Shown: positions 28,830 through 63,347 of the stretch, piece by piece
How positions within the stretch are numbered: the stretch's first letter is position 1
Layout: the number at the start of each line of letters is the position of its first letter
From: Argopecten irradians
Lineage: Eukaryota > Mollusca > Bivalvia > Pectinida > Pectinidae
Length of the DNA stretch: 64,000 bases
Assembly: GCF_041381155.1 (NCBI RefSeq)
Contig: NC_091135.1
Location: forward strand, 4,791,620-4,855,619
Direction of reading: 5' to 3'
Notes under the pieces: model-generated
Database searches by the model: none
What the model was told of the DNA's origin: nothing
Seen by the model: the letters and a program-made list of their open reading frames with translations, nothing else
Translations under genes and position numbers: made by a program

Positions 28830-28874
28830 GTGTGTGTGTGTGTGTGGTGGGGGTGTGTGTGTGTGTGTGTGTGT
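28785..28874 (+). repeat. (GT)n microsatellite
   Basis: About 90 bases of GT dinucleotides with interruptions TTG and GGTGGGGG. Confidence 0.97.
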
Positions 28875-29296: not shown

Positions 29297-29339
29297 ATTA
29301 CTGATGATTAGGACTCAATACAGGATTAGCACATAAAAA

Positions 29340-30140: not shown

Positions 30141-30189
30141 AAGAGTGAATTTATATAGGCAATGGATGTTGTAGTACTGATCATGTAAT

Positions 30190-31185
30190 TAATTCAAATT
30201 TTATGGTTTCAAAATCTGTTGGTAAGCTGGCCATGGGAATTGAGTATTACTAGGATGATACTGATCATGAATCAATTTGAGAAAAAAAATCAATTAAAGA
30301 AACAGTTGTCGTATTTTCGGCATGAAATTATTGCTTCAAAAATAAGAGAGGGGCACTCACTACAGGGAATACAGTAAGTGTAATAATTATATGTCAATAA
30401 ACTTGTCAAATTATTTTATTTAAAAAAGAAAACTATCTTTAATCATGATCATAGAGTTACCATAATGTGACATTAACAATAACAGATGTAACTGTTTTTG
30501 TACCTGTCACTTGTCTATGTAAGAACACACTGATGTCTCGATATATAAATCACAATATTTGGCTACGATACAATAATTCATGATGTACCTAAAATTATCT
30601 TTATGAATTTGATCACTTTACTTCTTGCAAATTCAAACTTAAATTACATTTAGATTCGAAACAAGTCATTTCAATCAAACATATGTAAAAAGATTTCAAA
30701 CTAAGCCAGTCATTAACATTTTTTGAAGATATATTTTCTGTTTAATGTATTATATATTAAAAACAGCATAAATGTTTGTGAGTGTATCAAATATTGTATT
30801 GTAAAAAAATATCGTGATATGAATGTATCACAATAAATCATTGCACCTCTAGATCTACTGATTTTAGCAGATTTACAACTGGAGATAGTTCACTGCTCCT
30901 AGTACAAAATATCTCTTTATACAACATTTATCTGAAGTAACAAAAAAAAATCAAACTGAAAAAAAAAATCAATAATTTAATAGGAAAAACAACCTAATTA
31001 ACAAAATCTGCACCACTAAAGATATATCGCGTCAGCATAAAATATAACCTTCCTATATTTGTATGAAATATCACATTCATATAGTTTAAGTTTACATTCT
31101 ATGTAGGACATATCACAGATAAGTTTAACCTGTGCATACGGTATATATTTAGCTTCTATATAGGATATATTACAAACAAGTTTAA
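30190..31185. other. No gene seen; degenerate ~60-bp tandem repeat at the right end
   Basis: AT-rich. From about 31020 to 31187 there are loose repeats of 'taacctt...tctatataggacatatcaca', which resume at 32250 beyond the hAT-like element. Confidence 0.45.
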
Positions 31186-40310: not shown

Positions 40311-42008
40311 TTCTATTCAGTGACATTTTCCATACCATTACTTCCAGAAATGGTTAATTATTATCCAGGTTAGTTTCAAGTAAGGATTTATAAGAGTCCA
40401 AGTCATTGGTTTGAAGATTGTATTGCTTTCAAATGACTGTGACATGGCCTTGGACTAGTATAAAACAAAATCTCAGTTGTGTACATACATTGTAATAACC
40501 AAATATGCATTATATATTATATACACCAGGAATAAAATCAAAAAAGGAACAAAAGGTTTTTGGGTAAACTATAGTCCTTTTAAATTTGGGAAAAGTTTAT
40601 AATAGCGGCGTAATTGGATATTTGACCATTCTCATTTTGGTAGAAAATTATCATTTTGAAGAAGTGTTGTAACACCTCGAATTTTATTGCAAGATTCAGT
40701 GAAACAGATTTTTTTAGCTCCATCATAAAAAAGCTTAAGTTTATCGTAGATATATGTAGAAGATGTATGATAAATATGAAGACATTTACAACCATACATG
40801 TAAGTCTTAAAATGTGCTGAAAATAAGACAAAGGGGCATTTTTTTCACAAAAGTGTTTTTTAGCTTCAAAAGGCGATTTCTTAAGTTTAGAGGAGAATTT
40901 CAGGCATTAAATGTAATTGTTGTAAAAACATAGACATACACTTTCGAATGTTGTCTGCATCTACATTTGTACATGTTATGATGTACATAATAACTATTCA
41001 TTTAATTAAAGACTCTATAGGAAGATAGATTTAAGATTAAATATTTAAACCATGCATACTTTCAGATGTGGTTTATTAGATGACAACTTCAGTCCACATG
41101 CTCATATTTAAAGTTTGTTCCAATTGGTTATGATAGTGGGAAATGTTTACATACATACAGTATAGTGTACATAACACAATTTAACAAAATGTTGTTAGGG
41201 TAACATTAAATACTTTATTCAGTTTAAACACATATGTTTCACATTCTATAAATAATCATTAGCATAAGCATAGTATTTTATAGCATAAAGGGGTCAAGAA
41301 CCATCAAGAACCGTGTATATCATGTATATGGCGAGAGGTCAAACTTCTACATGTGCCATGGCCGAAGACACAATATTTATTGATCTATTTCACTGAAAAC
41401 GGCTACTTGTAAGTGTTAGAATTAAATCAAAGATGCTTACACACAAATAGACTATGTACAGTGTAATACCGCCATTATCACGCTACCGACGACTTTGAAT
41501 CGTTTGTATTAGATATGACTTGACAGTTAACAATATTCTTTCACGTGGTTTAACCAACAGTTCAAGATCCAAACGTAACACACATGTACCTCTAAAGTTT
41601 CGTAATTAACGTGTTTTACGCGAAAGATCTACTACTATACAATTCTCTGTCCTTCCATGTAAACCGGAAGTTGCTTTACTCCCGACCCCAATATCGCTTT
41701 TCAAAGGGCGATAACTCAAAAAAAAGTTTTGTGGATGGGTCTACATTAGCATGTACCATGTCAATTTTTAACTTTTGCCATTTATTGCATGCATGGGCTT
41801 TGTGTTTGCATGACCTATAACAATTTAGTGTTATTTTACTCTGCCTTCTGTGATGCATGCTTCCTCCTGTTATATATCTCTGTGATGTCTCTTTTATTTT
41901 CGTTACAGTAGTAAGAATAGCTCTACTGAACTAAAGTTGCTTTGTTGTAAAAAGCACGACTTTTAATAAAAATTCTTGTATCTTGCATCTAGTATATATG
42001 GTGGATAA
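40311..42008. other. No gene seen (copy B), upstream of UNG exon 1
   Basis: Counterpart of 4301-5865 up to about 41910. The last ~100 bases (41915-42008) are private to B. A possible acceptor 'tttcgttacag' lies at 41898-41908 but leads into stops. Confidence 0.4.
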
Positions 42009-42374
42009 ATGTGCAACTTACGTAATATTGTCACAACTCCCCGACTTACCCCAAACAAAGATGGCGGATGTGACGTACATGTCGACTTCGAGAACGTTCG
42101 GTGTTATCTATTTCAAAAACGTATCATAACAGGAAATAGTCCCTGCTTGTCTGTCCTTCTTCTACGTATGTATTCAATACCAAACATGGCTAGATATAAC
42201 ATAAATCATTATCTAGCGAGCGACAGCTGGAGATGTGTACTAGGGATGGAATTTACAAAACCCTACTTTCAACAGCTTCAGCAAAAATTAGCACTAGATT
42301 ATGCGAATGGGAAACAGAATTTCCCTCCACTAGACTTAATTTTCAATGCCTTTAATTTAACTCCATTGGACAAG
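42009..42374 (+). other. UNG: UNG copy B exon 1
   Basis: 122 codons, phase 0, ending LTPLDK before GTAGGT. The DNA just inside includes an AAGATGGCGG motif (about 42058-42067) like a YY1 site, so this stretch may double as promoter or 5' UTR. Confidence 0.8.
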
Positions 42375-45300
42375 GTAGGTGGAATTTAAAATATAATTAT
42401 TACTAACCTGATAAGGACATATGTATGACTTATATACTCATGTCTATTTAACTTGTTAAACAGGGATCATTTTGTTACGCAAATGGAGGATTCTGTGAAA
42501 TGAAAATGGATAAAGTTGATTTAATAATCAAAGTACTGAAAGTACTAAATGGCTCGGTCTCGATGACAGGAGGAATATATTTCTAAGGTCAACACTTTCT
42601 TTTGGCAATAAGAAATACATTTGGCTGGTGTTATTTCCTGCAGTTTTTAGTTTTGAGGATTCCTTGGACACCAAGGTATAAAATAAGAGACACATGCTAA
42701 AATCTTGGGAGCCCATTCTAATATTTCCTATGATGGTATATGCCAAATGATTTTATAGCATTTTAAACATTTTCCTTGTTAATTTGATGTCAATGAAAAT
42801 ATCCATTCTGAATTGCTATTCTCATCAATTTCCTACCCCAGTATCATGATCAGTTAAAAAGTATTGTTTTGCAGTAGAGACAGACAAGAGGCATATTTTT
42901 CTATGCCAAAATGTCTTAAATATAGAATATATCTGTCCTCTAGAAGACTTACCAATATAGTCATACCATTTCTGAATAAATTGGCCAATTGGTTTACTTT
43001 TAACAAGTTTTTGTAATTATATATTCTTTTGTAAAACAGCAAGTTGATTGATATATCCAAACATAATTTAAACCAGCTCTGGATAAAATATCTTCAATAT
43101 ATTACAGCCATTACAAAACACTGGTCCAGTTTCATATAAAATATACATTAATTTATAAATGTGACTTGATAATTTATTTGATGTTATGAAGTTATGGCCA
43201 AAAGTAATCATTCTACATTTTATTTCAATATCAATTGGGTATCTTGTTAGCTCGCCATAGACCATGAAATTGTTTCTACACTTTCTTAAAGATTTTTTTA
43301 CAAAAGTACAAATGAATTGTTTTACAACATTTGTATTTTTAAATCCCCATTCTTCTGACGAGTATAATAAAACTGGCATTACAAGTGAATAAAAAAATTT
43401 CAGTTTAAGATCAACAGGAAGAGATACATTCCGTAGTTTCTTAAAATAGCAAACAAGGATTTAATTGTTTATTCAGCAGTTTTTCCCTTTCTTTTGAAAA
43501 CACTACCATTAGTATTAAAAATATACCTAGATATGTATACCCTTCTTATTAATCTAATTCCATATTCCATAAAGTAAACTGGTGTTGTTGGGCCAATTTA
43601 CGTTTTGAGAATATTACAACTTTTATCTTTCTGATATTAAGTTTTAATTTCCATAAATCGCAATATTGTTCAAATTCATTTAACATTTGTTATAGACCAT
43701 CAGATGTTTCTGATATCAAAACAGTGTCATCGGCATATAAAAAGATAAAAAATTTGTATTGTATATATGGAATTTTAAGATAATATGAAACTACCACCAC
43801 ATCTCCATTTCGCCCCGAAATTGATTTGCTCCCGATCTAATATGATTCCAATTACAGAAATCATTATTGTAACAATTTTGATGCTTGAGGTGAGATATTG
43901 ATTTCATTTTTTCCGTTGCGGGATAACTGTCACTAGTAGGGTCTAAATGTGTGGGGCGAACCAACTTCGGAGCGAAATATTTTCGGGACGAAAAGTCTAG
44001 ATACATCTTAAGCAATTCACGTAAAAATTCAGATACATTCTTAAGCAATTCACGTAAAAATTCAAACAAAAGATCATTTGGATAGTGTACATGGTAAGGA
44101 TATGAAAGCAGTAATCTGCTCTTCCCATTTCAACATTACAGATACGCTTATTTCAGTAACTTTCATTTTCAAAATTTGCGATTTGAAATTCCCGGTAAAA
44201 TCAAAGTTGTTGAATACACTGCCGCTAGGAACGCTAGTATCTGCGAGCAATTTCTAAACCAATCATATTGAGGAAATTGACTGAAAGAGAATTTGCACCA
44301 CGATCACAAAGGCGAGGTCGTAATGACCTCGCCAAAAAAGGGCGTCATAGTTTTACATGGCAACATCACTAATGCAACTTTTCACATTATTACTCAAATG
44401 GAAACAAATTTCATTATCTAAATGTTTGTAAAAGTCACAAAAATCACCTCTATAGAAATAAAAATAGAACACAGATAAAATCTCAGTTATATAGTGAAAA
44501 AGAGTTTGGTCGAGTTGTAATCGGGCTGTGTGTGTCCGATATGTACAGTTGACAAATCTCGCCAGTCTTGAACCCAGCACCTGACGTTGTACAGGTGTTT
44601 TACGTAGCTGATGACTGTAGATGACATGTATGTTTAAATGTATGTACTCACCAAGAGCCACATTTCCTGGTAGTATACTTTTACTGTCAGTGACCTACTC
44701 CAACGATGTATAGACCTATCTTGCTATCCATATAACTTTTTTGAGTTATCGCCCTTTGTAAAGCGAAAGTGGCGCCTGGAGTAAACAATGGTAGCTCTAT
44801 TCTGTTAATTTTCGTTCTCAAACAGTTATTTTTAATCATATTAGTTATTATCTAAATATTTACGTTGGTTATAATTGTTTTACTGTTATTATTCAAATTT
44901 TAGGGTTTTTTTTATCTAATAGCACGTTATCATTTTCTAGCTCACGTTATATGTTTGCTACTGACTTATCTTTACCTTTGCATGCGTTAGTCTTTTGTAA
45001 ATGATGTAAGATTCAGTGGCTGATGTTATTATTTATTGTGCATGATTATTATTTTAATTTCCCTTGTTATTGCCAGCATGTTATGTGATTTTTATGTGGA
45101 ACTTTGTTAGCATCAACAGAACATGTGATTATTTACATGACCGTGTTACGATTAAGTTAAAAACGTTATTTTTCCGTGAAAGCGTTATTTTTCCATGCAA
45201 ATACCGCTTTTCCATTGTTCTCACTGACCCCCTATGGCGACAGCGCAGTGAGCCGGCGGGCGAGCTTCGCTAGTGTGTTGATCACCGACCCATGACGAGA

Positions 45301-48300
45301 GCACGGCTCGCAATATAAGTCGACTATATCGCTACCGCATCGCATGTGCTGTGCGATCTGTGCAACACAATATGTATATAGTTTTCAGCTACTGTATTTA
45401 CCAAACTTTACTCCGGAGTTTGCATTCATTGTTTAAATTCATAGAAAGTTCTTTTCCATTTCTTGGTCGTCTTTGTAATGATTTACGTATAAGGGTTTGT
45501 GTTGGATTCGGTCATAAGTTAACTATACTGTAGTTCTAATTTGACACGTACCTGTTCCTTGATGATTGGTTTGACGTCACAAATAGTGTAAAACAAGGCT
45601 GTAATATTTCGCCGACAATGTTTACGATTTATATAAACGACCTGGCTGTCGAAATAGCCTTCAATGTCTCTATTTTATTTTACGCAAATGGTATTGCACG
45701 ATACTTCACTATAAGCTATGGCAACTATAGTGGGTGTCTAACTTTCATTTTATTTGTTGTTATCTGCTAATCGACATTACCGACAAATACAAATATCTTG
45801 GATTTTGATTTACCGAATTTCTGAATATGGAAATGCCCGCACGAGAACTAGCAAAATCTACCGTCTTGCCAATGTTTTAAATATTCTATTCATAAATACC
45901 GTTTCGTCCAGTTTGTTAAAAAAGCGTTCCTTTACTTTCTCGGTTCCGGTACAAATGCATCCAATGTCGTCACAAGAGATGATCTAGGATGGAGATTTTG
46001 TAATGTGAAACAAAAAATAGAGGTTTGTATGCTGTGGCTGACGACTCAAAAAGTCATCAGTGGTCAAAAGGAAATGGAGAAGCTGAGAATGTCGGGTAGA
46101 CAAATAACTTACCGAACGATCGTTGATCGACTTCTATGTACCTATTCCTAATGTTAAACAGTGCCTTCTTAAAGCCTGGTATATATTTATCCAGGAAGAT
46201 ACAGCCGACTGATATCGACGACTATGGAATGACATTGGCCAAATAAATGGTAATAGATATATATAACGTATTGTACATTTAAGAATGAACCATAAACAAA
46301 TCTTAGCAAAATTTCGTTGTGGTAACCTAAGCTAAAAGTCGAAACATTTAATTACAGGATCATTTGTGTACTCTATATATGTTCATCTAAATAGTGTTGA
46401 GGATGAAACTCACTTGATCTCATGTACAGTTTTAATTCATTTACCTGTCTCAGTGTGACAGTGATTTTTTTCTTCAAATTAGTGTCTCGTAAGCCAGTTT
46501 GGCTGGATATAATTATCATAGGTTCTAACTTTGAAATAGTTTTCACTTTGATGTAAACTCTCTGTGGTTTTTATGTGATTTTGAGATGTGATACTCAAAT
46601 AAAGTAAATTGCATTGTATTGTATACCATGTAACACCGAGGTTTCATCATCGCGGATCCTGGTGAGTAAGTTTATGATATGCAAATGATTCAGCTAATAG
46701 TTACATTTCATCATATTTAGCAACACTTTATAGTATTTTAGGATTCTCGATACTGTACGCAATGTGGTTGACATTCTCTACGACCCGTATACATTTATAT
46801 CAATCTTAATAACTAATCAGTTAGTGTTATTTCGGACTGAAGAAGGCCCTATAGCGGCTGAATATATATTCCATAGAAATGATTTGATTTTTTTATTTTA
46901 CTTTGAATTTATTTTGGCCTTTTATTTCGGATTATTTATACACTAGCTTTATACCGTTTTTACCTCATTATAATAACTAATCAAATACATATATACCTTA
47001 CATATGTATTATAGTTCTGTAGAAAATGTCACTTCAATTCGACACTTCACGTTGCAGTTTAATGTAGTTAACGCGGACTTAGAATTTAAAAATACATTAA
47101 AACTGAATGATTTCGCCATATTAATCGTACAATGTACGTGTAACCAGAAACATATATACATATGTATGTATGTTTCTGGTGTAACAACCACTTGAGATAT
47201 TTGCTGTAATTATTAATATGATCAATGGACAGGTCTGCACTACATACGGCCGCGATCGTTTCAACTTTGCAGTTGATCAGATCATTTTTTAAACAAAAAT
47301 CAAAACAAAACATACATCAATACGACTTTCGTAGAGAACCTGTGCGATATTGGGTGACTGAATAAATAATATAAACTTTGTACATTTGAATTCAAAAATT
47401 CTTATTTTCTAGCTTTACTTTTCTCGTACAGCAAATAATTTACCATGTACACGTAATCTACCGCTCCGATGATGTATTTTGTTAAAATGGAGGAAGTAAA
47501 GAGAATAATGTACAAAATTTACTTCACCTTCCTAGGTGTAATTACGTATCATAGCCTTCACGCCTGTATACCGCCCCAGGGGATGGCATACGACATCACG
47601 GATGTGTATTTCACGGTCGGTTGATCATCAGACGTCGTGCCATATATAGGGGTGAAACCGAATCATTTGTTATCGTCAATTTACCTGTGTGACTCGTACC
47701 CGTAAACGAAGTTATATTACTTGTGAAGGTACATTAACCTGAGACATAGAATAGATAATAGTTCAATAGTAGCGTATGTTAGATATAGACTGTAATACCT
47801 CTGGTATTCATATCAATCAATCGAATCAAAAAAGTTAATTTATTTCATATACGTATCAAAAGTGACAGTCCTTCCTAAACCAGACATCTATCTGTCATGA
47901 TGTGTAAGTCTGGTGTCAGGGCCAGAGTATCTCGGGCTAACCTGGTAGAAATAGCGAATGTTCAGTTTTCAATATTTTGCATAGATGAAATCATGATCAT
48001 ACTAGAGTTTCAATGAGTGTAATCAAGGATATATCCGCGGTCTAATAAAACTGAATGTAAAATGTAAAAAATGGGTTTGTAATATTTTAATCTAGATGTA
48101 TTTGTAATACTTGGATTAAAATAATTGATAAAACCAAGGACGTATATGAATCACTTATAAATCCTTGATAAAACTTTGTGATAATAGAACACGACTTATC
48201 TCATTATAGAATGGAGAGTTTCCAAATCAACTTGATTTCATTGAAAATATAAATTTTAACCCCTTCTCCCTATAATGTTTTATGGAACTCACGAAATTCT

Positions 48301-51300
48301 AATATTCTGTTTCAAAGTGGTTTTTCACCCTTTTGCACCAACAATTTTGGTTAACAACTCATATATATTTAGAAACTTCATATCACACCCTTTTCAGATT
48401 TTATAAGAAAAAATATGTTTTTGCGTTAATGACGTTACCATAGCAACCGGAAATTGGGACTTTCACAAAAATGTAAAGTTTCTTACATGTACATGTATAG
48501 CTCTTAAAGCCTATGAAAGTGATTTAAGTGTTCTTTTAATAACTTAATAATCAAGTATATCATTGAATAAGAGATGAAAGTTCTATTGAATGTCATATTT
48601 TCAATTTAGTTTTGGTTGTTACCATGGTTACCAAAAATATTTATAACCGACGATTTTTGAAAATGTTTTGATTTAGCGATGTATTTGTCATGCTTTAGCT
48701 GTAGCAAAAATGTTTTATTTTGAAATGTTGGTTACCTTTCAACTTGCATATTGACTTTTGAAGAGAACAGGGTCAAAGTTGATGACAAATTATTGAATTT
48801 TGGCACTAAAATATTACCATGGCAACTGAAAGCAGGTCTATATATTTTGTTTAGCTTATAGAAACATTTATTTGGGCCTCCAGTCGAATGGAAAGGTTTT
48901 TTTTTATTATGTAACGTTTTGTTTGACTCGTTACATGTATGTATTTCGAAAGTCAAGATATTCAGGTGAATATGTTTACATATGCCATTGGATATAATCA
49001 AAATTTCAATGCAGTACTCTTCATATGTGTGTACACTGCAGTAATTTGTTAGTGACCAACGCAACTAATTTATTAATGTACCTAGTGTCACCTTTTCCTT
49101 ATTCCTCCACACAAAAGTATCAATACCATCAACAGAATAAACGTTGACAGAGCAAAAGTTTGTAACACTCAGGGACTTATATGGATTGCATTTTACCTGT
49201 ATAAACGGAAACAGGAAAATAAAGCATGTATGTATATGTACACTTTTCAATGTTTCATAGGGTTAGATGTATTATGCGTGTGTACAATGCTCTGTCTCCA
49301 TAGGTAAGGAAAAGAGATGTATAGGACAGGAGCCTCCACTGTCTTGACCATATTGTATATAGCATGCAATGGTACTTTTGTGTTATGTCTTGTTTAGTTT
49401 GTAGAAACACTGCACCTTACATATATGATACACAGCTATATATGTATGTTATCCAACACAGGCCTTTGTCACTATAGATACAATGTATATATAGAGGTGT
49501 CCGTATATCTGTATAGCCAAAGGCCTGTTGTGTCTACAAGCATGTGTATTTTGTCTTGTCTAAATTGTAGATATATAGATTACATGTATCTGGTATCTTT
49601 GGACTTTGGTCACATCATACAAGCACGTTTGATAGAATTACATACACTTTACTCTACTTTCAGTACACGTTTTCAATTGGTTTAACTACATATGTATGAA
49701 TATAAAATATCCATGTAAATGCATCTATACATTATGTCTGTCCTGCCATGTTTTCTTTTTTAAACAATAACTTGTGTATGTTCACAACTGTATAAATTAA
49801 ATTAGAAAGCACTTAAAAATGAGATACAAGTATGATATTTTTAATTAATAATGCAGATTGGAATATGTTTGTTTGTTTGTTTGAGTTTTACGCCCAATCG
49901 ACAACTCGGGTCATTTTCGGCCAAACTACAGGTCAGACATTAATATCAGGATATAAACAATGATTGCATCTAAAAGATCGGGATAAGAAAAAGGCAAGTA
50001 AGAAATAAAACACTGATTATAAACGTTGATTTTATATAAAAAAAAATTCCATGGTATAAAATAGTTTTGGTTAAAACACATGAGATAACTATGGTGATGA
50101 ACTGGGTGAGTTTCATAACAGGAGATTGGTTATCTTCCTAAGGTAGTCACCCACTGATGTCCATACACATGTAGTCCAAACTGACGTACCTGTAAGTTTT
50201 CAATAAGACACATTTGTAAAAACCATTAAGAATGCTATTACTGAATTATATCCTTTAAATGGCAGTCTCTGTTTGTACAAGCATCAAATGAAATGTATGG
50301 TACACTCTAAGTAACTAAGTATAAACACATATAGTTTTAAAAAATGCTCATAATTACGGTGGCTGATTTGTGCCATTTCGTCTTTTCGCCCCGAAAAGAC
50401 GAGAATTAAAAAACCTTAAATTTCGTCTTTTCGGGGCGAAAAGACGAAATTTAACAAATTTAAATTTCGTCTTTTCGCGGCAAAAAGACGAAAATTAACA
50501 AACCTTAATTTTCGTCTTTTCGTCTTTTCGCCCCGATAAGACGAAATTTAACTATCTTAATTTTCGTCTTTTCGTCTTTTCGTGTGGAAGTCATTTTTAA
50601 ATCTTTTTATCTTAATATTGACTTAATTGTTCAATATGGAAGCATCAAAGTAGTTTATGATAACAATCGATTTATTAAATTGATAGTATTACAAGGTTCT
50701 TCGTCAATAACTAAGATTAGAAGTTTTAAAACAGAAGTCAACATGTATGTTTACAGCAGTTACGTAGTTTTCTCACACGTGGCATGTGCCACGTGCCATT
50801 AACAGATTCATCATTCCGCAAATCCTTTAGCTTGATTAGTACATTTTTTTTAATTCATTAATGTTATTTTTTGTGTTCTAATCGCCCTATTTCGCACTTA
50901 CGCTTATCAAAACATTGCCGTGTATATGCACATACTGAACTTAAGATGCTAAACATAGCACATACAGGAGTTGCCTCCCCTATACAACTTGGAAAAAAAA
51001 GTTGTCGGCGGGTAATATTTGAAAGCGTTTGAACCACGGATCAACTTGTTAACAAAATAATTTCTGAAAGACAACTCGTGAAGACTTTGAGTTTAAAGGA
51101 AGAACTTGTACCAAGAAATTGCTCAAATACCGTTAATTATAACAGTCAATCAGTGGGTACAATATACTGTGTATTATTTGAAAAGACATTTTGACTACAT
51201 ACATGACATGGTCTTCATCATAATTGTACATTAGAAATAACATTATAATCTCCGTCGTATATGAAAGATGACAAAGTATATCTGTAATTTGTAATTTTTC

Positions 51301-54300
51301 GGGGCGAAAAGACGAAAATTAAGGTTTGTTAATTTTCGTCTTTTCGTCCCGAAAAGACGAGAATTTTTGAAGGCGAAAAGACGAAAATTAAAGGCGCTAA
51401 TTAGCGTGCTTCACTTTCGTCTTTTCGTGTTTGAGTTTTCGTCTTCTCATCTTTTCGCCGCGAAATGACGAAATTTAATTTGTTAATTTTCGTCTTTTCG
51501 GGGCGAAAAGACGAAAAGACGAGAATTAAGGTTTTTAATTTTCGTCTTTTCGGGTCGAAATGACGAAAAGACGAAATGGCATAAATCAGCCACCGTAATA
51601 TTGAATACAATAGCGCTACAATGAATTGCACCACGGCCGAATCGCACTGCCTTCCTTTCGTTTGAAGTAACCGTGAACAAAAGACAAGTAACGGTTTGTT
51701 TGTGGTTTTGGTTGAAAGCCCTTCCCGCTCATTCTGATTGGTCGTTTACCTGCAGTTAGTGAAGGTGTCCAACAGCAGCAGAGTGGAGTTACGTATACAC
51801 ACTAATTCATTAACAAATTTAACACACCATCAGATATACCTCAAACACTACATTGAATTTTCTGCTCATAAGCATGTTTCATATACATGGATATGGATTT
51901 TATTATAGTATTTTGAAATAATTAAAATAATCATTTGAGACTATTTTCATTGAATGAGGCTGTGTACTGTATTTTTTCATTGAAATGATAGTATGGATCG
52001 AACTGATAATGAAGTCAAATAACATCTATACAAAGACTGCATCTGTATTACAGCATACCGCTTATTATTAAGGAAAACTTATAAACGGCAATCCTTTGAT
52101 CTCCCACACAGCTCAGGCGACGACCAGTTTGCAAAACGTTTCTGATTGGCCGACCAACCAGGGAACAGTATCGACGTGAGTGTAACACTTTGACTAAAAG
52201 TGTAAGAACACCGATCAGTGATATTCCAGGAATGTACCCTCCACTAAGGGGAACCAAAACGCCAGGACATATCACATTGTATGTCCCTTTCGTATTGATT
52301 GTGTTGGAGACGAGCCTCACTATTTATATATTTGTTTAAAACGAGTTGATATAATAGCTATAGTTTTATCCGCTGCGCACGGACCGTCTCTGTTTCCGCT
52401 GTGGTGGAATTCATTGTAAGGGATGCAAGGCATGTATACATATAATGCATTGTATGATGCGTTAGACACGGTTCTCGGTTTTACGATGGCCGCTGATTAA
52501 GTAGTTGTGCATTGTACATTTATAACTTGATAAAGAGTGCATGACCGTTTACTTGAAGTAGATAAATGCACAACTGCTTCAGAGTAAATGGTCGTACAAC
52601 TAGTTCTACTTCAATCAAAAGCAGTAATTTGACGGCTCAAACGGGCCACCGTACATTTGTTTTTTACCTGTACAGGATTTAAAATTGTGTAATGCATAGT
52701 TAAGAGAACACACCTTGAAATGTCCTTTACACTTACCAGTCTCGATATTTGATCCTTTGTTTTGTTAGATGGAATTTAAACAAACGTGCTGTCACGCTAC
52801 TGATCTTAGAATCTAAGTAACTTTGTCTTCTTTCAAACAAAAATGAGATGAGTCATCATTGACACTTAACCTGACAAATAATAGATAGTTATTGTGACAT
52901 TGGGCAAGTCTTATATAGTGTTACTGCACACATTTTTTCTTCTTAAAGATGCATATGTCTGGAATTTCAAGCAACACATCAACATGCCGTGTCAGATTTT
53001 GACCCGAAGTGGAATCCAATATACATTTCTTTTTCTTCGTCACATATATCAAACGATGTTTTAAAATTCATATTCTAATAATAAATTTCTTTTGTGAATA
53101 AATTTATAGTTTGAGAAAATCAACTAAAAATCTATGCCCATCTTGATCTCACATGTGCTTGTTTTGTACCGACGAAGTTAAAGTTAGAAATTGTACCGTG
53201 CCGCGATTTCCGTCGAAGTCATTATCTAATTTGTAGAGGCGACAGAAAACTTATTTCGGCATGTTATGAATTACATATTTGAGTATTTTGAAATGTATAG
53301 TAAATATTTTTTTTTATTTTGTATTAGGATTAAGTTTACTGTGTAGTACACAATATACTTATTACATGTACTTAATCTACGAGAAAATTATTGTTTGAAG
53401 AGTGGATTTCTTTCAATATAAGTGGTCACACATAAAATTGACAATATCAACTACAAAAATGTGAAATACAAGTATTAATTCTTGCTACTTGTTGCATATT
53501 TCGAGACACAATTTCGAATCTACGCTCCGGCGGTTACGCCGTCTGACACACGACGTCAACAATTTAAAAATTCTCAGAATTAAGTTAGCATGACTTTTCA
53601 ATTCACTGAAAGAGAACAAAGACGTTGCCAAATGAATTTTTGTTTAGACAAAAGTTGTCGGTTATTTTCTGTTGTTTTACAACATGTTAACAGTATCCCG
53701 ATAACTCAAGAAATAAGGGAGATATTGCTATTTTCTCAACACCGACATAAAAATGCGTATAAATGCGTACTTGGGAGTTAGGCCGTCCATTCTGCGATGT
53801 CATGCTACCGGATCCCGGTAAACATACTTATTTCTCCGTACCCCACTTCTGACACAGGGATCTGAGCATTAGTTACAGATTATATAATCATGGACCGACC
53901 AGAGTGCCGTAAGACCATTTTCAGACGTTAAGAGGTCTAAATCAAAACACGGTGTTTTTTTTTTAGGAAAAAAAAAGATTTTTATTACTTAAAAGAGAAA
54001 TGATACAATAAGTTGCCCTCACACAGGAGGGGATCCATTCAACTCACAACTTTTACACGTATTTAAATTCAAAAGACACAATGTAAAACTGCAGGGTTCA
54101 AGCAGAAGAAAAAATAAGTAAAAGCAAGAAAACTTGAAACTTCATAAAACTGCATTTGTAATCTCAGGCCTATTTTTAATTGAGGCATTTTAAGCTGTAA
54201 AGTTTCAGATGGTCTGAGATAGAGTTCATGGCAAAGTAAACAAGTGTTAATTTTTGGACTATAATGGAACTAACTATCATTCAAAATGGTTTGTAAAAAT

Positions 54301-57300
54301 ATGAAATGTTCTGACTTAAATTGCCTTTTCTTGACTACTTGAACCCTGTTTTAAGAAGCACATGAATACTGGTATGTTTGTTTGTACAGTACAGTTGTGT
54401 AGAATATTAAATATGAACAAACACATGGACACACAATTTTACCTCTCAACTACAGTTAGATTCCAGACAATTTATATATTGGCTGACGAGGGTGCCTCAC
54501 CTAACCTATTGCTTTCCTCTTCCAGTGGTGAGAGGTAATTATATATAATTTATAAAGTAAAATTATCATTTCTTACTCCTTTAATTACATTTCTTTGGGT
54601 GAATATTAGAGTATAGAGAGGAAAGAGAGAGAGAAAAAGAAGAAGAAGAAAGAGAGAGAGAAAAGAAGAAGAAGAAAAAAAATGGGGTGTGGAAGGGGAG
54701 CTTGAGGGGTAGATCTTGGAGGAGTAGGAAGGAGGGAAGAGGATGGTGCTATCAATGATAATTTATACAAATTTAACTTGATGATATATGAATAAAAACA
54801 TCTGCTTATTCTTAGAAGATGGATCAGCAACACTGTTGGTAGCATTGGAGAGTGGTTTAAGGAGAGACGAATATCACGGTGTTAAATCATCCTATACATG
54901 ATACCTTATACGAGTAGAAAGGGCACTTTGGTGGGTCCATGATTACGTAATCTGTGACTAATTCGCAGAAATTTATACAGGTGTACTGTTTACGTTTCGG
55001 TTGACTGGTTACGCATGTGTGTATAATTTCTCATGTGTGAGCTGTTTATAGCTTGCACTGTGTTTTCTCTTTTATATTCTGGACTTAGTCTTGTTAGCTT
55101 GATTAACGAAACTTGTGTAGGCGTTTCACATTAGTACTGGTGAGTATATGGACAGTGCGGCTTTGGGAACTGAAATATAGGCTTTACAATCCTGTGTAAA
55201 AACTTCAATTGCGAATGCTCATAATCAGAAATGTTTCATTACCGATAGATCTACAGTTAAAACTATTTGATGCACTTGTGATGCCAATTTTATTATATGC
55301 ATGTGAAATCTGGGGTTTCGAAAATATTAAGAATATAAAAAAATTACACTTACAATTTTGTAAACGGATTTTAAATGTCCGTATTAGTACACCAAATTAT
55401 ATGGTATACGGTGAATTGGGCAGGTTCCCTTTAGAAATTGAAATAAAAACAAAAATGATTATGTTCTGGCATAAACTCGTAACGGGGGAAACGAAATTAT
55501 CTACTACAATGTATAAATTATTGTATAAGTTGCATCAGGACTCCGTATTCAGTTCTAGGTGGTTATTATATATTAGAGATATATTGAATAATACTGGGTT
55601 TAATGATATTTGGTCACTTCAACTATCTTGTACAGTTAATAGAAATTATCTTAAAACAATTATTAAACAAAGACTACAAGATCAATTTATTAAAAATGGT
55701 ATCATGAAATTGACAGTTCCTCGCGAGGTCAAATGTATTCTTTTTTAAGTCTCAATTCAATTTTGAACCATACCTTTTAAAACTTAATCATAACCAACGT
55801 AAATATCTGTGTAAATTTAGAACTTCTAATTTAAAATTCCCTATAGAGACAGGCAGATGGAACAACATCACTCGCGAGGAAAAGTTATGTCCTCTCTGTA
55901 CAAATTGTATTGGAGATGAGTACCACTATCTATATGTATGTAATCATGAATCTGTTGTAGCATTACGAGGAATTTATATGCCAAGATACTACTTTACTAA
56001 TCATAATTATCACAAAATGAAAGGAATGTTTACTATCTGCAATACAGCTCTATTAAGTAAAGTAAGTAGTTTTATTCAGAGAGTAATTAAGCTTCTTTAA
56101 ACTATATAAGGAAAAATAGAATTGTTAGTTTCAATGTATTTAAATTTGCCTTTTGATGACTGTATCCATCTATTATTTCCTTCTTTATTTTCATTTTTAT
56201 AATTATTATTTTTGTTCCTTTTGACCTCTTGTTGCATATGTACATATGTCATGAGTGAATAAATAAAATCTTGAAATCTTGAAATCTTGAATCATGGGAG
56301 GTGTCGTGTAACAGGGTACGGGGGAAGGATGGGCGACAGTATTACTGGGGAGGCCGCTCATGGGTAAAAGGGACTAAGTAGGTTATTGTAGTAACTGATA
56401 TGGGGTTGAGTGTATTAAATTCTGAAACTGATAGGCCAGTACTGAAAATACAAACTTGTAATTTGGATCTAAGAGGGGTTGTTATTGTTTAGTAGTATTG
56501 ATATTACAATTTGATAGGACTAACATTTGTTGTTCAACTTGTTTTTCATGTTTGCTGTATACAGTACATAAAATAGTCAGAAGGGAGACTTTCATTCCGT
56601 TTCATTCTAATTTTCGAGGGGAAAAACACATTTACGCATATTAAGGAACACCATATTCACCTAACTTGCACCACTCTCTGCCTCTTTTATACAGATATAT
56701 TCAACATTCACACATAATAAATACTTGTTGTTACAGTAATACTGCATAGTAATTTGGATTGTTTGTGTAATTAAATAATAATAATGATGATAAATATAGA
56801 AGGACACATAAAATCATGTAGGGAAAATGTCACTGATTAGAAAAGATCATAGATTATGAATTGATTAATGTCTGAAAGTGGACCTAAAAGAATCATTTTT
56901 CATAAAATTCTAATGTATTATCCACCCGTATTTCATACCAAATAACAAACAATTATGTCTTCAAATTCTCCTACAATCATATTTATTTATGATGTGCCTT
57001 ACATAATATACATAGTGTAAATATTTTTTTACTGTTTTTCAAAGGATATGTGTCACTGTCAGAGCCATTCCCATATTAAAGCGACAATTCAGTGAGGCTA
57101 GTGTGGATGATACACAAGATATCTGTCGGCTTGAAAAAGTAATTGGAAATATCAAGATTTGAAAATAGTTTTCTTTTGGTTTGGGCGGTGTGGTAGCTTC
57201 TGTGATTTCATATGATATTTACAAAAACATCGTTTAAGATGCATACCAAACACTAGAGAATTTTTATTAGCCTAAACCTAAGTGTATTATATTTATATAT

Positions 57301-60300
57301 AATAAATAAACAATATACATGTATACAATACATGTGTATATAAGCCAGGTTTTCTTTCCAGTTTTTGATATATAGGATCCCCGATTCTGTGTTTCTAAAA
57401 AAAAATATTTTCTTCTATGCATTTTTACATTAATAACTGCAGTATCATGCATCATCATAGTGTATTTGTATCACAGCATTGTTTGATGTATGGGTATGAA
57501 TTATTTGTATATAGTTGTCATCAATCTATAAACCATTTGCTTAACAAAGCGATGGAATACAATTCACATAAAAATTCATTTAGTTTCCTCTTCATTTTGA
57601 CGAGCAACACCTAAAGTGATTACCTTTTGTTGTCATCAGCTTATCAACATTTTAAGATTTACATGCAGGGCATTTCAAATTTATTTTTATTTGAAATTTT
57701 GTGCACATTCAGGATTCATACATGTATATCTAAACAAATCAACAAATTGCTATGAAGTATGTATAAAGAGTGCACGTGCATTTCATTTTGAATATAAATA
57801 ATATTGAAATACATTTATCTATCGATAGGAACTTGAATGACTTTAAATGTTTCTGATTGGAATGAATACACTATCATCATTTACCAAGCCTTTCAGAAGA
57901 AAGCAAACCTTTCAAGGTACAAATCAAATAATCCATTTAAGATTTGGTTTCACATAGAGAATTGATTCAAACTATTAAAAAGTCCGCAGTTGTTTATGTT
58001 TGAATAGTAACAGCGAAATCCATATATATAGATGTACAACGTCCCGAGAAGAGACTTTTTATATCCGGCCAATGAGATTGCATCTGAAGCCTCGCTCATG
58101 CATATTTTATCGGCCACACAGACAGTTTGAATTTTAATTCGATGATTTTCAAGATGTTTGTCATAATGGGGCTTATATTATCTTAATTATGGCACTTTGT
58201 ATATATGTGTAGGATGATTTTAAAAGGAAAATTATCGCTCTTTCCAACGGTAGTAACCGTTTTTAGCTCACCTGGCCCGAAGGGCCGGTGAGCTTATGTC
58301 ATGGCGCGGCGTCCGTCGTCCGTCGTCCGTCGGCGTCCGTCTGTCCGTCAACATTTCCTTTAAATCGCTACTAGTCATAGAGTTCTGCATGGATTGTAAC
58401 CAAATTTGGCCACAAACATCCTTAGGGGAAGGGGAACAGAACTTGTATAAATTTTGGCTCTGACCCCCCCGGGGGCAGGAGGGGCGGGGCCCAATAGGGG
58501 AAATAGAGGTAAATCCTATAAATCGCTACTTGTCCTAGAGTTCTGCATGGATTGTAACCAAATTTGGCCACAAACATCCTTGGGGAAGGGGGTACAGAGC
58601 TTGTATACATTTTGGTTCTGGTACCCCGAGGGCAGGAGGGGCGGGGCCCAATAGGGGAAATAGAGGTAAATCCTTTAAATCGCTACTTGTCCTAGAGTTC
58701 AGCATGGATTGTAACCAAAATTAGCCACAAACATCCTTGGGGGAAGGGGAACAGAACTTGTATAAATTTTGGCTCAGACTTCCCGGGGGCGGGAAGGGCG
58801 GGGCCCAATAGGGGAAATAGAAGTAAATCCTTTAAATCACTACTTGTCCTAGAGTTTTACATGGATTGTAACCAAATTTGGCCACAAACATCCTTGGGGG
58901 AAGAGGAACATAACTTGTATAAATTTTGGCTCTGACCCCCGGGGGCGGGAAGGGCGGGGCCCAATAGGGGAAATAGAGGTAAATCCTTTAAATCACTACT
59001 AGTCATAGAGTTCTGCATGGATTGTAACCAAATTTGGCCACAAACATCCTTGGGGGAAGAGGAACATAACTTGTATAAATTTTGGCTCTGGCCCCCCAGG
59101 GGCTGGAGGGGTGGGGCCCAATAGGGGAAATAGAGGCAAAATTTGTGACCAAATTTGGCCATAAACATCCTTGGGGGAAGGGGAACAGAACTTGTATAAA
59201 TTTTGGCTCTGACACCCTGGGGGCAGGAGGGGTGGGGCCCAATAGGGGATTTAGAGGTTAATATTAAAATTCCTTCAGAAAAGAAACAATGAACCTGTAT
59301 TCAGAACATTACTTGGCATTACAAACCAGGTGAGCAATACAGGCCCTCTGGGCCTCTTGTTATGACGATGTACTAGAAATGTGGTTTTATAGCCGATAAA
59401 GGTAGGCGGTTAGAAATTTTGAGTCTGTGAGTTTCCACCCTTCTCGTATATAGTACCATGTAGAGTATGCTTTTAATCGGGTTTTTTATATAGAGCTCTA
59501 AAACGTCTAAAAATGGTCTTAGGGCACTCTGGTGGGTCCATGATTATATAAACTGTAAGTAATTCTCAGATCCCTGTGGTTCCGGTGACCTCTCTGATTG
59601 GTCAATCATAAAGGTAAAATGAAATATCGTTCAGAGCTAATATAATCTTTTTGTATATAGATAGTCATTTCTCCCTAACAGCATATGTATGAATAATTGA
59701 TGTGACGAAATGACTTGTTCATACGCATCTCAACCGAGATAAGTGTACGGATCTTTGATTTTTATCGTAGATTCTATGACGCTGCAAAACTACAAGTTTT
59801 AAATGTAGATATTATAAATTCGCCGCAATTTGCGAATTTGTAACTATAATGTAAGAGAAAGATACAAAGATAAATTGTTATGCATTGTGAGATGACCCCT
59901 CAAACCGCTGAAGTCGCACTCCGAGTCTGTGTCTCTGTCGATGGTAGAAATGTCTATTTTGAACAGCGAAACATGTCTATCGTATCAATATGATAATAAC
60001 AAAGCACATAATTAACAAAGTTCAAAATAATTTCACACTTAAAGTTCTGATGAAGTAAAGGAAAGTATTTATTACGATACATCAAGGACGTAAACCATCT
60101 CCTTGCAATAGTCCAAATGATAATAAACGAAAGTGCTACGCACACCTGTTGTGGAGGAAGATTCCATGCTGAAAATTAAGGTTAGGAAGCAGTTAGGAAG
60201 CACTTAATGTAAAACAGACATATTTATAGTTTCATACAATTTTTAAAACAACTTTATCTATTTTCATTTCACAGAATCCTGCATTTGCGTAACAAAATGA

Positions 60301-63300
60301 TCACTCAAATGAAGGACTGTTGCTCAAATGCAAAGCTATCCCGCTTACACGTCCCACATCTGTTTAATGTGTCCTCATTCGACAAGGAAGATGGAATTAA
60401 AAACATTGTTTTAGCCCGAAGTAAAGGCCGGTGAGCTTATGTCATGGCGCGGCGTCCGTCGTCCGTCCGTCAACATTTCTTTAAATCGCTACTAGTCATA
60501 GAGTTCTACATAGATTGTAACCAAATTTGGCCAGAAACATCCTAAGGGGAAGGGGAACAGAGTTTGTATAAATTTTGGCTCTGACACCAATGGCAGGAGG
60601 GGCGGGGCCTAAAAGGGGAAATAGAGATAGACCATTTAAATCGCTTCTTGTCATGGAGTCATGCATGGATTGTAACTGAATTTGGGCAAAACGATCCTTG
60701 GAGGAAGGGAAAACATAGTTTGTATAAATGTTGGCTCTGTTCCCCCGGGGGCAGGAGGGGTGGGGCCCAATAAAGGAAATAGAGGTAAATCCTTTAAATC
60801 ACTACTAGTCATAGAGTTCTGCATGTAATGTAACCAAATTTGGCCAGGAACATCCTTGGAGAAAGGGGAACAGAGTTTGTATAAATTTTGGCTCTGACTC
60901 CCGGAGGCAGGTGGGGCGGGGCCCAAAATAGGAAATAGAGGTTAATTATATAAATTGCTACTAGTCCTAGAGTTATGCATGGATTGAAACCAAATTTTGC
61001 CAAAAACATCCTTATGAGAAGGGGAACAGAGTTTATATAAATTGTTTTTTTAACAATCCATGCAGAACTCTAGGACAAGTATAGATTTTGCCTAAATGTT
61101 GGCTCTGTTTTTGGCTTTGACCATCTAGAGCAGAAAGAGTGGGGCCCAATAGGAGAATTAGAGGTAAATATTCCAATTCCTTCAGAAAAGAAACAATGAT
61201 CCTGTATTCAGAACATTACTTAGCATTACAAACCAGGTGTGCGATACAGGCCCTCTGGGCCTCTTGTTTTGTGTTAATTGGAATTCATATACACAATTAA
61301 CCACCAATTATAATCCGATGATGAATAACGTTTATAAGGTGGAGCATCTTTAATGGTAGAAAGGATGTATTAATAACAAATCAATTTTAATAACTATTCC
61401 ATACATTCCAACTTACTGAACGTCTTTTAATGTGAAACTGAGATTTAAGGAGTTCGGGTCAAAGTTTAAATTCTTGACCAATAAAACGTCCAGAAGGTCA
61501 TATTCTACCAATGGAATACCAATAGTTTAAACAGTATTTTCGGGACATAAACATAAACAAATTGAAAGCTTATTTAAATTCCTTTCACAGAACATTTAGC
61601 CTGAGACTGGAATGACACGACGTATGCTGGTAGAAATATATGTTAGACAATTACTATGTCAATTCTGTGCTAAAGACCATGATATGTTAATCATCTGCCA
61701 CATACACAATTGAGGGATGATTATGAATGTTCAGACAGGTTGCTGGGCATTACTTGCTTAACTGATCACAATTCCACAATGAAAAAAAGTATAATGTAAA
61801 TCAATCTTATTGTCTTGCAGGTGAAAGTAGTTATTGTTGGACAGGATCCATACCCTACACCTGGCATGGTAAGAATTACTCTTAGTTACTAAAAAGTTAT
61901 AAAAATATAATTGCTTTATTCTTGATCAATACCAGTTCATGTAAAATTTTCAGCAAGCACATAATCTCTGAAGTGTAACAGAAATATATATATATATGTT
62001 TTAACCTATGTCGGCTTGTTATATTGAAATGTACATTTTTTGTCATATTTTGCCAAAATGACACCACAATTTACTAGTCAACAGTAATATATAATGTTAG
62101 GCCTGATGCAGAGACATCTTCTATCATCTTAATTATGTTTAAGTACACCTAGAGCTCTAAGATGTGATATATAGGCATGCATAATATCAGAGTAATCGGC
62201 CCTTGCGGGTAGGTTATTGATTGTGACATCATGTGTTTGCGAGCGTAACGTCACTCATACATTTCAGATAATACGACGTGAGTTTCGCTCACAAAACAAT
62301 GACGTCACAATGGATACCTACCCGCCAGGGAGATAACTCTGTGATATGCAAAGACCGAATATAGTCATGCATAATATCACTATTTTAGGGCCTAATACCT
62401 TAATAATTTTGCAATGTTTTTATTGGTTACTCATTTTCAGGCCATGGGGCTGGCGTTCTCTGTACCACGCGGATGCGGATTTGAAGTACCGCCATCATTG
62501 CAGAACATATATAAACTGTTGACCAATGAATATCCGCATTTTAAAACCCCTAATCACGGAGATTTGACAGCATGGGCCAAAAGAGGGGTTTTTCTGCTCA
62601 ATACTGTACTGACATTTCAGTAAGTATCGTATTGGCATTCCTCGTTTAATTCAAAGGCGTTCCAGTAGGTGCTGTGGCTGAGTAGGTGACGTTGATTTTA
62701 TGGTTCAGTAGGCCTAACAGGATTTTGTATGGGGGATTTTTGAAACTACTATAATAGTGAACTTGGATGCAATGGATATTACATATTTCAAATTTTAGTC
62801 CAATTACACCAAGAAACAGTTTACCTCTGGAATTTCTCTTCAAAACTTATACATGTTGTATGTGTACCACTATTCTTGCCAAAATGAAGTAAAATGACTC
62901 CTTGTATTTCCAAATTAATTTAGAAAAAGCATGCAGTCATCACAGACCCACCCCATGGATTATGACAAGATCTGTTATATTATAGTAATACTATTTTCAA
63001 TGATGTTTGGCTTTCTCTTGTCTTGTAGAGCCAATGAACCTGACTCACATGCCACGAATGGCTGGGCTAACTCACATGCCGAGTATGGCTGGCAGACCTT
63101 TACTGATGAAGTTATTCGCATCATCAGTAGGAAGCGTACCGGCGTCGTGTTCCTTCTTCTCGGCAACAAAGCACACGAAAAAAAAAAATTAATCGACATA
63201 AAAAAACACACTTTCATCGAACGTCCCCATCCTTCACCTTATTCATTTCATTTGTTTAATAAATACGATTGGAAGTGTTTTTCTTCGGTTGACAATGATT

Positions 63301-63347
63301 TGATGATGATGGGCGACCAAACCTGGAAAATGGACTGGTCACTGTAA
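42009..63347 (+). CDS. UNG: Uracil-DNA glycosylase, copy B (open, four exons)
   Basis: Exons 42009-42374, 61821-61868, 62441-62619 and 63029-63347 join with GT-AG sites to an open 303-residue frame. The order is family 1 UNG: SW...EFTKPYF near residue 70, [11 protein letters not shown] near 105, loop [16 protein letters not shown] (123-138), [62 protein letters not shown] and the catalytic His motif HPSPYS, ending DWSL. The protein removes uracil from DNA in base-excision repair. Oddities: the loop has Pro where most UNGs have His (GQDPYH), Met replaces the Gln and His around QAHG, and exon 4 has a duplicated SHA...GW stretch. Two in-frame starts exist (42009 and MARYN near 42188). An upstream exon at 34750 could replace the first start. 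Intron 1 is 19.4 kb. Confidence 0.9.
42854..43785 (-). mobile_element. LINE fragment in UNG intron 1, copy B (minus)
   Basis: Same insertion as 9209-10125, with YADD at 43726-43737. The frame 43379-43068 ([12 protein letters not shown]...[16 protein letters not shown]) stays open longer here than in A. Confidence 0.85.
43997..44063. repeat. Two ~33-bp tandem units, copy B only
   Basis: The unit GATACATCTTAAGCAATTCA...AATTCA occurs twice here and once in copy A, directly beside the 39-bp unit that A duplicated instead. Confidence 0.8.
44311..44333. repeat. Perfect 9-bp-arm hairpin, copy B
   Basis: Same hairpin as 10658-10680, unchanged. Confidence 0.7.
45531..45595 (+). repeat. Single 65-bp CRE-like unit, copy B
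   Basis: One copy of the unit that is present four times in A. It includes TGACGTCA, with one base different (AATAGTG). Confidence 0.9.
45597..46620 (+). mobile_element. LINE fragment (second RT family), copy B
   Basis: Counterpart of 12154-13170 with the same YANG at the active site, so that change predates the duplication. The last frames have extra small indels relative to A. Confidence 0.82.
46963..50352. other. Copy-B-only segment, no gene confirmed
   Basis: About 3.4 kb absent from copy A (A joins the equivalent of 46961 to 50448). It has a small hairpin around 47145-47180 (CCAGAAACATA/TATGTTTCTGG) and a CATATATAGGGG promoter-like motif near 47643. A GTTTGTTTGTTTGAGTTTTA block at about 49867 resembles a common mollusc SINE-type end. 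Minus frames at 48732-49064 (110 codons) and plus 49425-49685 (86 codons) have no recognisable domain. Confidence 0.5.
49867..49990 (+). repeat. Possible SINE-type relic
   Basis: GTTTGTTTGTTTGAGTTTTA, then CGCCCAATCGACAACTCGGG and TCATTTTCGGCCAAACTAC. I recall a 'TTTGTTTG...TTTAACGCCGCATCGACA' motif as widespread in mollusc DNA; the assignment is from memory and tentative. Confidence 0.35.
50353..51599. mobile_element. TIR element with TTCGTCTTTTCG subrepeats, copy B (both ends present)
   Basis: A 1.25-kb element bounded by ATTACGGTGGCTGATTT and its complement. Inside each end are several alternating direct and inverted TTCGTCTTTTCG modules; the middle (about 50600-51290) is unique AT-rich DNA with no transposase. 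It is therefore a non-autonomous TIR element with long subterminal repeats. The superfamily and target duplication could not be fixed. Confidence 0.85.
51600..53852. other. No gene confirmed (UNG intron 1, copy B)
   Basis: Counterpart of 14553-16842, including the hairpin MITE at 52502. Confidence 0.4.
52502..52612. mobile_element. Hairpin MITE, copy B (right arm partly deleted)
   Basis: As 15475-15608, but about 25 bases of the right arm, including its ACTTCGTCAAG portion, are missing. Confidence 0.6.
53853..54968. mobile_element. Palindromic MITE, family 1, second site, copy B (split)
   Basis: The same MITE as 16843, interrupted after CACGGTG by the retrocopy at 53957-54874. The right half resumes at 54875 and runs to the ATTCGCAG end. 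Confidence 0.8.
53957..54874 (-). mobile_element. Poly-A-tailed retrocopy (mRNA 3' region), copy B only
   Basis: A 918-bp insertion flanked by the 9-base direct repeat CACGGTGTT (53948-53956, 54875-54883); copy A has the empty site near 16935. On the minus strand it ends with AAGTAATAAAAATC, a T9 run, CCT and an A-rich tail. That is a polyadenylation signal followed by poly-A, as expected of an mRNA reverse-transcribed by LINE machinery. A pyrimidine-rich CTTCTTCTTTT / CTCTCTCT tract lies near 54615-54680. No coding frame is recognised, so it may be a 3' UTR of an unidentified gene or a tailed SINE-like element. Confidence 0.75.
55223..56291 (+). mobile_element. Recent 5'-truncated LINE insertion, copy B only
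   Basis: A 1069-bp insertion between TCAT repeats (55219-55222, 56292-56295); copy A has a single TCAT at 19169. It encodes the C-terminal end of a non-LTR retrotransposon ORF2: [26 protein letters not shown] and [16 protein letters not shown] (to 55748). A second frame from 55744 to 56100 holds [14 protein letters not shown] and [12 protein letters not shown], a Cys-rich tail typical of this clade. The two frames meet at a T6 run. The 3' end is a tandem CTTGAAAT repeat rather than poly-A. Its low decay and absence from A mark it as young. Confidence 0.88.
56880..57990 (-). repeat. Right arm of the large inverted repeat, copy B
   Basis: Counterpart of 19745-20870, in UNG intron 1 of copy B. 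No gene is seen. Confidence 0.75.
58265..59361 (+). mobile_element. Helitron-like element with ~157-bp tandem repeats, copy B only
   Basis: It begins AGCTCACCTGGCCCGAAGGG (a hairpin with GGTGAGCT) and ends with the GGCCCTCTGGGCC hairpin plus TCTTGTT. Between are five ~157-bp units (starts 58362, 58520, 58677, 58834, 58990) and a partial sixth. The empty site in copy A reads CGTTTTTATG, so insertion made no target duplication and falls at a T/T or T/A step. Terminal hairpins plus no target duplication fit a non-autonomous Helitron/Helentron (HINE) carrying a minisatellite core. This family assignment is inference. Confidence 0.85.
59437..59578. mobile_element. Palindromic MITE, family 1, third site (half), copy B
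   Basis: Counterpart of 21215-21355 with the same missing half. Confidence 0.75.
60413..61268 (+). mobile_element. Helitron-like element with ~155-bp tandem repeats, copy B (old insertion)
   Basis: Counterpart of 22205-23060, nearly identical including the degraded 5' end. Confidence 0.8.
61821..61868 (+). other. UNG: UNG copy B exon 2
   Basis: A 48-base exon encoding [16 protein letters not shown]. It differs from copy A by three bases, all replacements (Leu/Val, Asn/Met). Confidence 0.9.
62189..62340. mobile_element. MITE in UNG intron 2, copy B
   Basis: Counterpart of 23975-24125, with one extra T near 62214. Confidence 0.7.
62441..62619 (+). other. UNG: UNG copy B exon 3
   Basis: 179 bases, by eye identical to 24227-24405. 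It encodes the [20 protein letters not shown] core and ends two bases into the Gln codon before GTAAGT. Confidence 0.9.
63029..63347 (+). other. UNG: UNG copy B exon 4
   Basis: 319 bases with intact HPSPYS (catalytic His) and a TAA at 63345. It contains an imperfect in-frame duplication of ACTCACATGCC...GGCTGG ([16 protein letters not shown]), so this loop is about ten residues longer than in human or E. coli UNG. Confidence 0.88.

Follow-up and report, generated by a model that had tools for sequence, protein, structure and literature searches.

How could two adjacent copies of a gene for uracil-DNA glycosylase (UNG), usually a conserved repair enzyme, come to differ far more in some exons than in the introns between them? 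This question is raised by a locus of the scallop Argopecten irradians, which we analyzed within a stretch of 64,000 bp (hereafter the window; C2:4791620-4855619, in an assembly totaling 846 Mb). The window carries tandem UNG duplicates, designated copy A and copy B, both of which lie where a previous inspection of the nucleotide sequence alone (the sequence-only reading) had placed them. Our results indicate that a fast-evolving UNG duplicate without the N-terminal tail has probably been subject to recurrent positive selection on its N-terminal part, and that copy A was disabled later.

Organization of the tandem UNG locus

BLAST matches and their alignment delimited two duplicated units: unit A, whose part inside the window spans positions 1-25255 and which starts approximately 5.3 kb before the window, and unit B (29798-63486). 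A repeat is located between the units (29798-30260), and its relatives, at 88-91% identity, start 5,284 bases before the window and approximately 1.5 kb past its end, so that related repeats lie before, between and after units A and B. The joined sequence of 113 kb contains no N. The bounding repeats and the uninterrupted sequence would fit a tandem duplication through unequal crossing-over. Further similar, but rearranged, stretches are present outside the units (25809-30309 with 64527-70013). Open frames at 35669-36058 and 55209-55748 resemble, by eye, pieces of a LINE-type reverse transcriptase. Rfam and tRNA scans of the 64-kb window detected nothing.

A protein search of the genome placed another UNG gene, encoding protein P0003, at C2:4777727-4780781, i.e. 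11-14 kb upstream of the window start. P0003 shares its inner exon-intron borders with copies A and B, and its aa sequence is 59% identical over 79% of the copy B query. Its first exon, encoding a basic N-terminal tail, had no match in the duplicated units at an E-value of 0.001; the annotated ATG of A and B appears to fall near the position of the splice acceptor of the next P0003 exon. Because of its place, the shared inner borders and the highest identity, P0003 is presumed to represent the direct parent of the A/B lineage, and it served as the outgroup for the branch counts given below.

The protein tree groups A and B in a single clade (support 100/100), whose closest relative among the scallop UNGs it leaves unsettled. 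The branch to A and B has a length of 0.79, compared with 0.19 for P0003, which suggests that the A/B lineage was already evolving fast. Another scallop, Mizuhopecten yessoensis, has three UNG proteins (P0123, P0124 and P0125), one of them with a long additional N-terminal part and two of them recorded on contigs of identical length; these form their own clade in the tree, separate from A and B.

Structure and predicted products of copies A and B

Copy B, located on the forward strand, consists of (i) exon 1 (42186-42374), with the annotated start MARYN and a frame that remains open for 59 more codons in the 5′ direction, to position 42009, (ii) exon 2 (61821-61868), encoding the GQDPYP loop, (iii) exon 3 (62441-62619), identical to that of copy A, and (iv) exon 4 (63029-63347), encoding the HPSPYS loop and ending with a TAA stop codon. 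The spliced product corresponds to A. irradians protein P0001 over 244 residues (81% of the 303-residue query). Among solved structures, it matched E. coli UNG chains (E-value 6e-54) and, in total, 45 distinct chain sequences at an E-value of 0.001. Judged by sequence similarity, copies A and B belong to the family 1 uracil-DNA glycosylases (UNG, PF03167), with uracil excision as a predicted activity only.

Copy B keeps the GQDPY, FSV, LLN and HPSP motifs, including the D, Y, F, N and H positions that act in catalysis; within the motifs, H is replaced by P at one position and L by Y at another. The copies resemble P0003 and the UNG family in their inner exon borders, their retained catalytic motifs and their matches to solved UNG chains, but differ in having GQDPYP for GQDPYH, HPSPYS for HPSPLS and LLFG or LLLG for LLWG, and in lacking a match to the N-terminal exon of P0003. 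GQDPYP and HPSPYS, common to A and B, are older changes inside the catalytic motifs. An AlphaFold model of copy B, built from an alignment of 22 sequences, had a mean pLDDT of 86.7 and a pTM of 0.88, with residues 145-150 below a pLDDT of 50.

Copy A, also on the forward strand, comprises exon 1 (8537-8720), exon 2 (23611-23658), exon 3 (24227-24405) and exon 4 (24815-25116). It does not represent an intact gene: exon 1 contains a surplus base and an in-frame TAA near position 8702, single-base losses break the frame of exon 4, and the stop codon is altered. Its protein (P0002) carries the NCBI label LOW QUALITY. Copy A has the disrupted frame of a pseudogene, with assembly error as a possible cause.

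Divergence of exons, introns and flanks

The copies were compared in an alignment of 16 collinear blocks picked from the BLAST matches, and the non-exon rate was calculated without the two outer flanks (8474-8536 and 25114-25255). Non-exon DNA differs at 625 of 28,806 aligned sites (2.2%), which is higher than the approximately 1% previously proposed for the introns. Intron 1 differs at 212 of 12,628 sites and intron 2 at 8 of 567. In exon 1, counted from the ATG (8537 in A, 42186 in B), 34 of the 183 aligned sites are different, compared with 3 of 48 in exon 2 and 19 of 295 (6.4%) in exon 4. The reported identity of exon 3 (0/179) and intron 3 (24406-24814 of copy A, forward strand; 0/409) was reproduced. 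Tandem arrays with units of approximately 157 bp occur in intron 1 at 22271-22837, in copy A and with a counterpart in copy B, and at 58331-59262, an array that copy B has in addition. Intron 1 of copy A also carries perfect tandem copies of a 65-bp unit (11893-12152), of which copy B appears to have fewer.

Overlapping stretches of 183 aligned columns taken from non-exon DNA (28,623 in total) never reached 34 differences; the maximum was 18, so exon 1 stands out on its own. At the non-exon rate, 3.1 replacement changes would be expected in exon 1, where 33.5 were counted (P = 5e-24 under a Poisson model that assumes an even rate). This value overstates the certainty, as do the other Poisson values, because the substitution rate varies along the units, which include long identical runs. 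Exon 2 shows 3 changes vs 0.8 expected (P = 0.04). Exon 4, taken as a whole, lies inside the noncoding range (6.4% vs a 95% point of 6.7% for 150-column windows).

Contrary to what had been supposed, the divergence continues past the outer exon borders, since both outer flanks also differ. The 5′ flank of exon 1 (8474-8536 of copy A, forward strand) has 6 differences in 63 sites and is partly similar to the P0003 intron that precedes the matching exon. The frame of this flank is open for 60 (A) and 59 (B) codons upstream of the ATG, and five of its six changed codons replace a residue; it may be coding. The first 64 bases of the 5′ extension of copy B match repeats at four other places in the genome. 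The 3′ flank of exon 4 has 15 differences in 142 sites, and is mostly composed of a dispersed tandem repeat (25144-25540 in copy A, forward strand; unit of approximately 160 bp) that recurs throughout the genome, often in small tandem arrays; for this reason it was dropped as a neutral yardstick. Five of the 30 columns before the repeat differ, two of them in the copy B stop codon, and the 10 differences in the 112 columns within it (9%) may result from the comparison of different repeat units.

Local divergence at both outer ends may thus be higher than in the introns. A local neutral rate near 10% in the exon 1 region, as the flanks might suggest, is hard to dismiss firmly, because the silent sites of exon 1 number only about 33. 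Against such a rate exon 1 would, by simple arithmetic, still be in excess (33.5 vs 14 replacements), and exon 4 would show no excess.

Replacement and silent changes

We obtained dN and dS from Nei-Gojobori counts, with gapped or frame-broken codons removed beforehand. Branch counts were made by three-way parsimony, in place of a branch-site test, with the two copies and one outgroup from a single genome. The codon sets of the changed-codon and dN/dS counts differ slightly (60 vs 58 for exon 1, 84 vs 68 for exon 4).

The earlier observation that the exons had diverged almost entirely by amino-acid replacement was confirmed: synonymous codons account for 0 of the 28 changed codons in exon 1, 0 of 2 in exon 2 and 1 of 15 in exon 4. 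Silent changes in these three exons amount to 2.5 of 52 by the Nei-Gojobori counts vs 26% expected (binomial P = 2e-5 for two or fewer and 1e-4 for three or fewer). Over the whole coding sequence, dN is 0.113 (49.5/472.5 sites) and dS 0.019 (2.5/130.5), a ratio of approximately 6. Exon 1 has a dN of 0.286 (33.5/140.8), well above both its dS of 0.015 (0.5/33.2) and the non-exon divergence of 0.022, as expected under positive selection; this dN is approximately 13 times the non-exon rate. Exon 2 has a dN of 0.089 and a dS of 0, and both values are zero in exon 3. For exon 4 alone, dN is 0.085 and dS 0.049.

With P0003 as the outgroup, the ratio of replacement to silent changes in exon 1 is 13:0 on branch A and 15:0 on branch B, with six ambiguous sites; the corresponding ratios are 1:0 and 2:0 in exon 2, and 3:1 and 9:1, with one ambiguous site, in exon 4. 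For the four exons together, and leaving out the seven ambiguous sites, branch A has 17:1, branch B 26:1 and the stem plus the P0003 branch 66:36. The two copies combined (43:2) differ significantly from the stem plus outgroup branch (Fisher P = 3e-5), which does not hold for exon 4 alone (12:2 vs 17:11 on the stem; P = 0.16). When compared with half the non-exon rate, replacements over all exons are in excess on both branches (A, 17 vs 5.1 expected, P = 3e-5; B, 26 vs 5.1, P = 5e-11). Exon 4 exceeds the non-exon rate on branch B but not on branch A (3 vs 1.75 expected, P = 0.26). The proposal of diversifying selection was therefore supported for exon 1, where both branches carry replacements only, and not for exon 4 alone. 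The evidence from exon 4 is equivocal, since by itself this exon does not separate selection from locally higher divergence.

Mutational bias was rejected as the source of the pattern, since the spectrum is neither GC-biased (13 W to S, 17 S to W and 15 other changes) nor deaminase-like (7 C>T or G>A changes among 45). Alignment error was also rejected, because exon 1 has 41 gap-free codons from the ATG.

Constraint on the changed sites

Conservation of sites was judged on 14 other UNG proteins. The changed sites of exon 1 include 7 of the 29 family-conserved positions compared with 21 of the 31 variable ones (P = 9e-4); in exon 4 the proportions are 11 of 58 and 6 of 31 (P = 1.0). Each copy has kept 57 of the 67 near-invariant family positions and lost 10. 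Exon 1, away from the catalytic motifs, accounts for most of the A-B differences, and exon 3, which encodes the catalytic core, has none. Since the conserved positions of exon 1 were mostly held while others changed, we infer that both copies produced a protein while they were diverging. The changes in exon 1 of copy A are all replacements, and for this reason its frame was most likely broken after the selection had acted, unless the break is an error of the assembly.

Search for a donor and probable gene conversion between the copies

Exchange with a divergent donor, the finding that the sequence-only reading had set against selection, received no support: searches of the A. irradians assembly with exons 1A, 1B and 4A and with the P0003 protein revealed no third copy of the A/B type. 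For exon 1A, all 3 candidates were scored, and they proved to be A, B and the upstream UNG; for exon 1B, all 6 were scored, and the matches were exon 1B itself, A and, in its first 64 bases, the four repeat places. Exon 4A with its flank found A, B, the upstream UNG and 3′-flank repeats among the 40 of 935 candidates that were scored; because the repeat drew most of the listed matches, the negative result for exon 4 also rests on the P0003 protein search (32 of 32 scored), which added only a distant second type of UNG.

This second type, represented by two places in C11 and one in C669, was rejected as a donor, being too divergent (42-43% identical to P0003). The three loci (L014, L015 and L016) are fragments of the second UNG type (GVLLLNSCLTV... 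and LVFILWGSYA.KKG); in L014 and L016 an exon piece is tandemly repeated many times with a period of approximately 61 bp, in a satellite-like manner.

Conversion from the upstream UNG was also rejected. Of the 50 sites that differ between the copies, 15 match one of six scallop UNGs in copy A alone, 10 in copy B alone, 6 in both copies and 19 in neither. Residues like those of scallop UNGs are thus kept at different sites in A and B, a pattern that a single conversion tract would not give.

Between A and B themselves, gene conversion is likely. The tract formed by exon 3 and intron 3 has no differences in 588 bp vs 12.8 expected (P = 3e-6), which points to recent local conversion, and intron 1 contains an identical run of 863 columns ending at position 23365. 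Such exchange may help to keep the introns similar.

Origin of the exon divergence

The explanation that we regard as probable is as follows. A UNG duplicate that lacked the exon for the basic N-terminal tail would itself have been duplicated in tandem, probably via unequal crossing-over between the flanking repeats. After the split, many replacements would have accumulated in exon 1 of both copies, and also in exon 4 of copy B, with a divergence of only about 2% at silent sites and in noncoding DNA. Recurrent positive selection would have acted on the N-terminal helices, sparing most of the catalytic motifs and most of the exon 1 positions conserved in the family, and local gene conversion, over exon 3 and intron 3, would have homogenized other parts. 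The frame of copy A would have been lost afterwards, provided that its frameshifts are real and not errors of the assembly.

The alternative that survives best, although we consider it unlikely, is that A and B are older paralogs or alleles, which split early and whose introns and exon 3 were homogenized by conversion; exons 1 and 4 would have been spared, either by selection or by adjacent non-homologous DNA that kept conversion out. DNA without a BLAST match does adjoin exon 1 (5848-8473 in A and 41904-42122 in B) and lies past exon 4, both outer flanks are diverged by approximately 10%, and the identical tracts of 588 bp and 863 columns suggest that conversion occurs. A similar case, described in PMC3924837, is that of the human red/green opsin genes, a tandem pair whose introns have diverged little and in which divergence peaks in an exon; there, conversion is held to have homogenized the introns of an old pair. 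In contrast to the opsins as described there, the silent exon sites of the scallop UNG copies are as low as the introns. In exon 1 this holds among the very codons that have changed (0.5/33.2, few sites limiting the test), which disfavors an old donor or an old allele. The replacement excess of exon 1 would, moreover, still require selection.

It is less probable still that the pattern is an artefact of assembly, with A and B being two alleles set in tandem, or the exons containing consensus errors. The frameshifts of copy A would agree with this. Bivalve alleles can show about 2% divergence together with many indels, so that the distance between the copies falls within their range. Sequencing errors, however, are not expected to cause only replacements or to avoid conserved sites, and the N-free 113 kb with repeats bounding the units fits a tandem duplication. 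If the copies are nonetheless allelic, the replacement excess stays and still requires selection.

Relaxed constraint or pseudogene decay alone is the least probable explanation. In its favor are the broken frame of copy A, the loss of near-invariant positions from each copy and the failure of the changes in exon 4 to avoid conserved sites. Decay, however, should not proceed faster than the neutral rate of the introns, as exon 1 does; this explanation is contradicted for exon 1 and stands for exon 4 only.

If recurrent positive selection did act on exon 1, the selecting agent is most plausibly a protein that contacts the face formed by this exon, i.e. a partner of the N-terminal helices. UNG inhibitors of the DNA-mimic type occupy the cleft in which the enzyme binds DNA. 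Conflict with such an inhibitor is not our first guess for the recent A-B changes, because most of these are found in exon 1 and not in the catalytic motifs. A more speculative and rather doubtful idea is that the tail-less scallop UNG has come to take part in an open-ended conflict. The opponent would be a virus, a mobile element or a partner protein, the N-terminal face, and not the active site, would be targeted, and tandem copies would turn over by rapid replacement and loss.

Comparison with known systems and significance

The small serum protein genes of the habu snake form a duplicate array in which, according to PMC6609765, two young pairs have KA/KS values of 1.74 and 1.54, with intron divergence of 0.065 and 0.049. 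The scallop copies resemble these genes in being duplicates with a replacement excess and low intron divergence. The difference is that the snake pairs are serum proteins with a lower ratio, whereas the scallop genes belong to a repair enzyme family and have an overall dN/dS of approximately 6. Exons of snake venom genes are the subject of PMC2711939.

Among the titles and abstract openings listed for UNG with positive selection and for UNG with scallops in the open-licence literature, none reports this pattern; earlier reports are possible. We judge a replacement divergence in exon 1 of about 13 times the noncoding value to be very high; repair enzymes of the UNG kind are usually conserved. 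If the finding is confirmed, the locus, in which a live and a broken copy stand next to the upstream UNG, would provide a system in which to find what acts on mollusc UNG.
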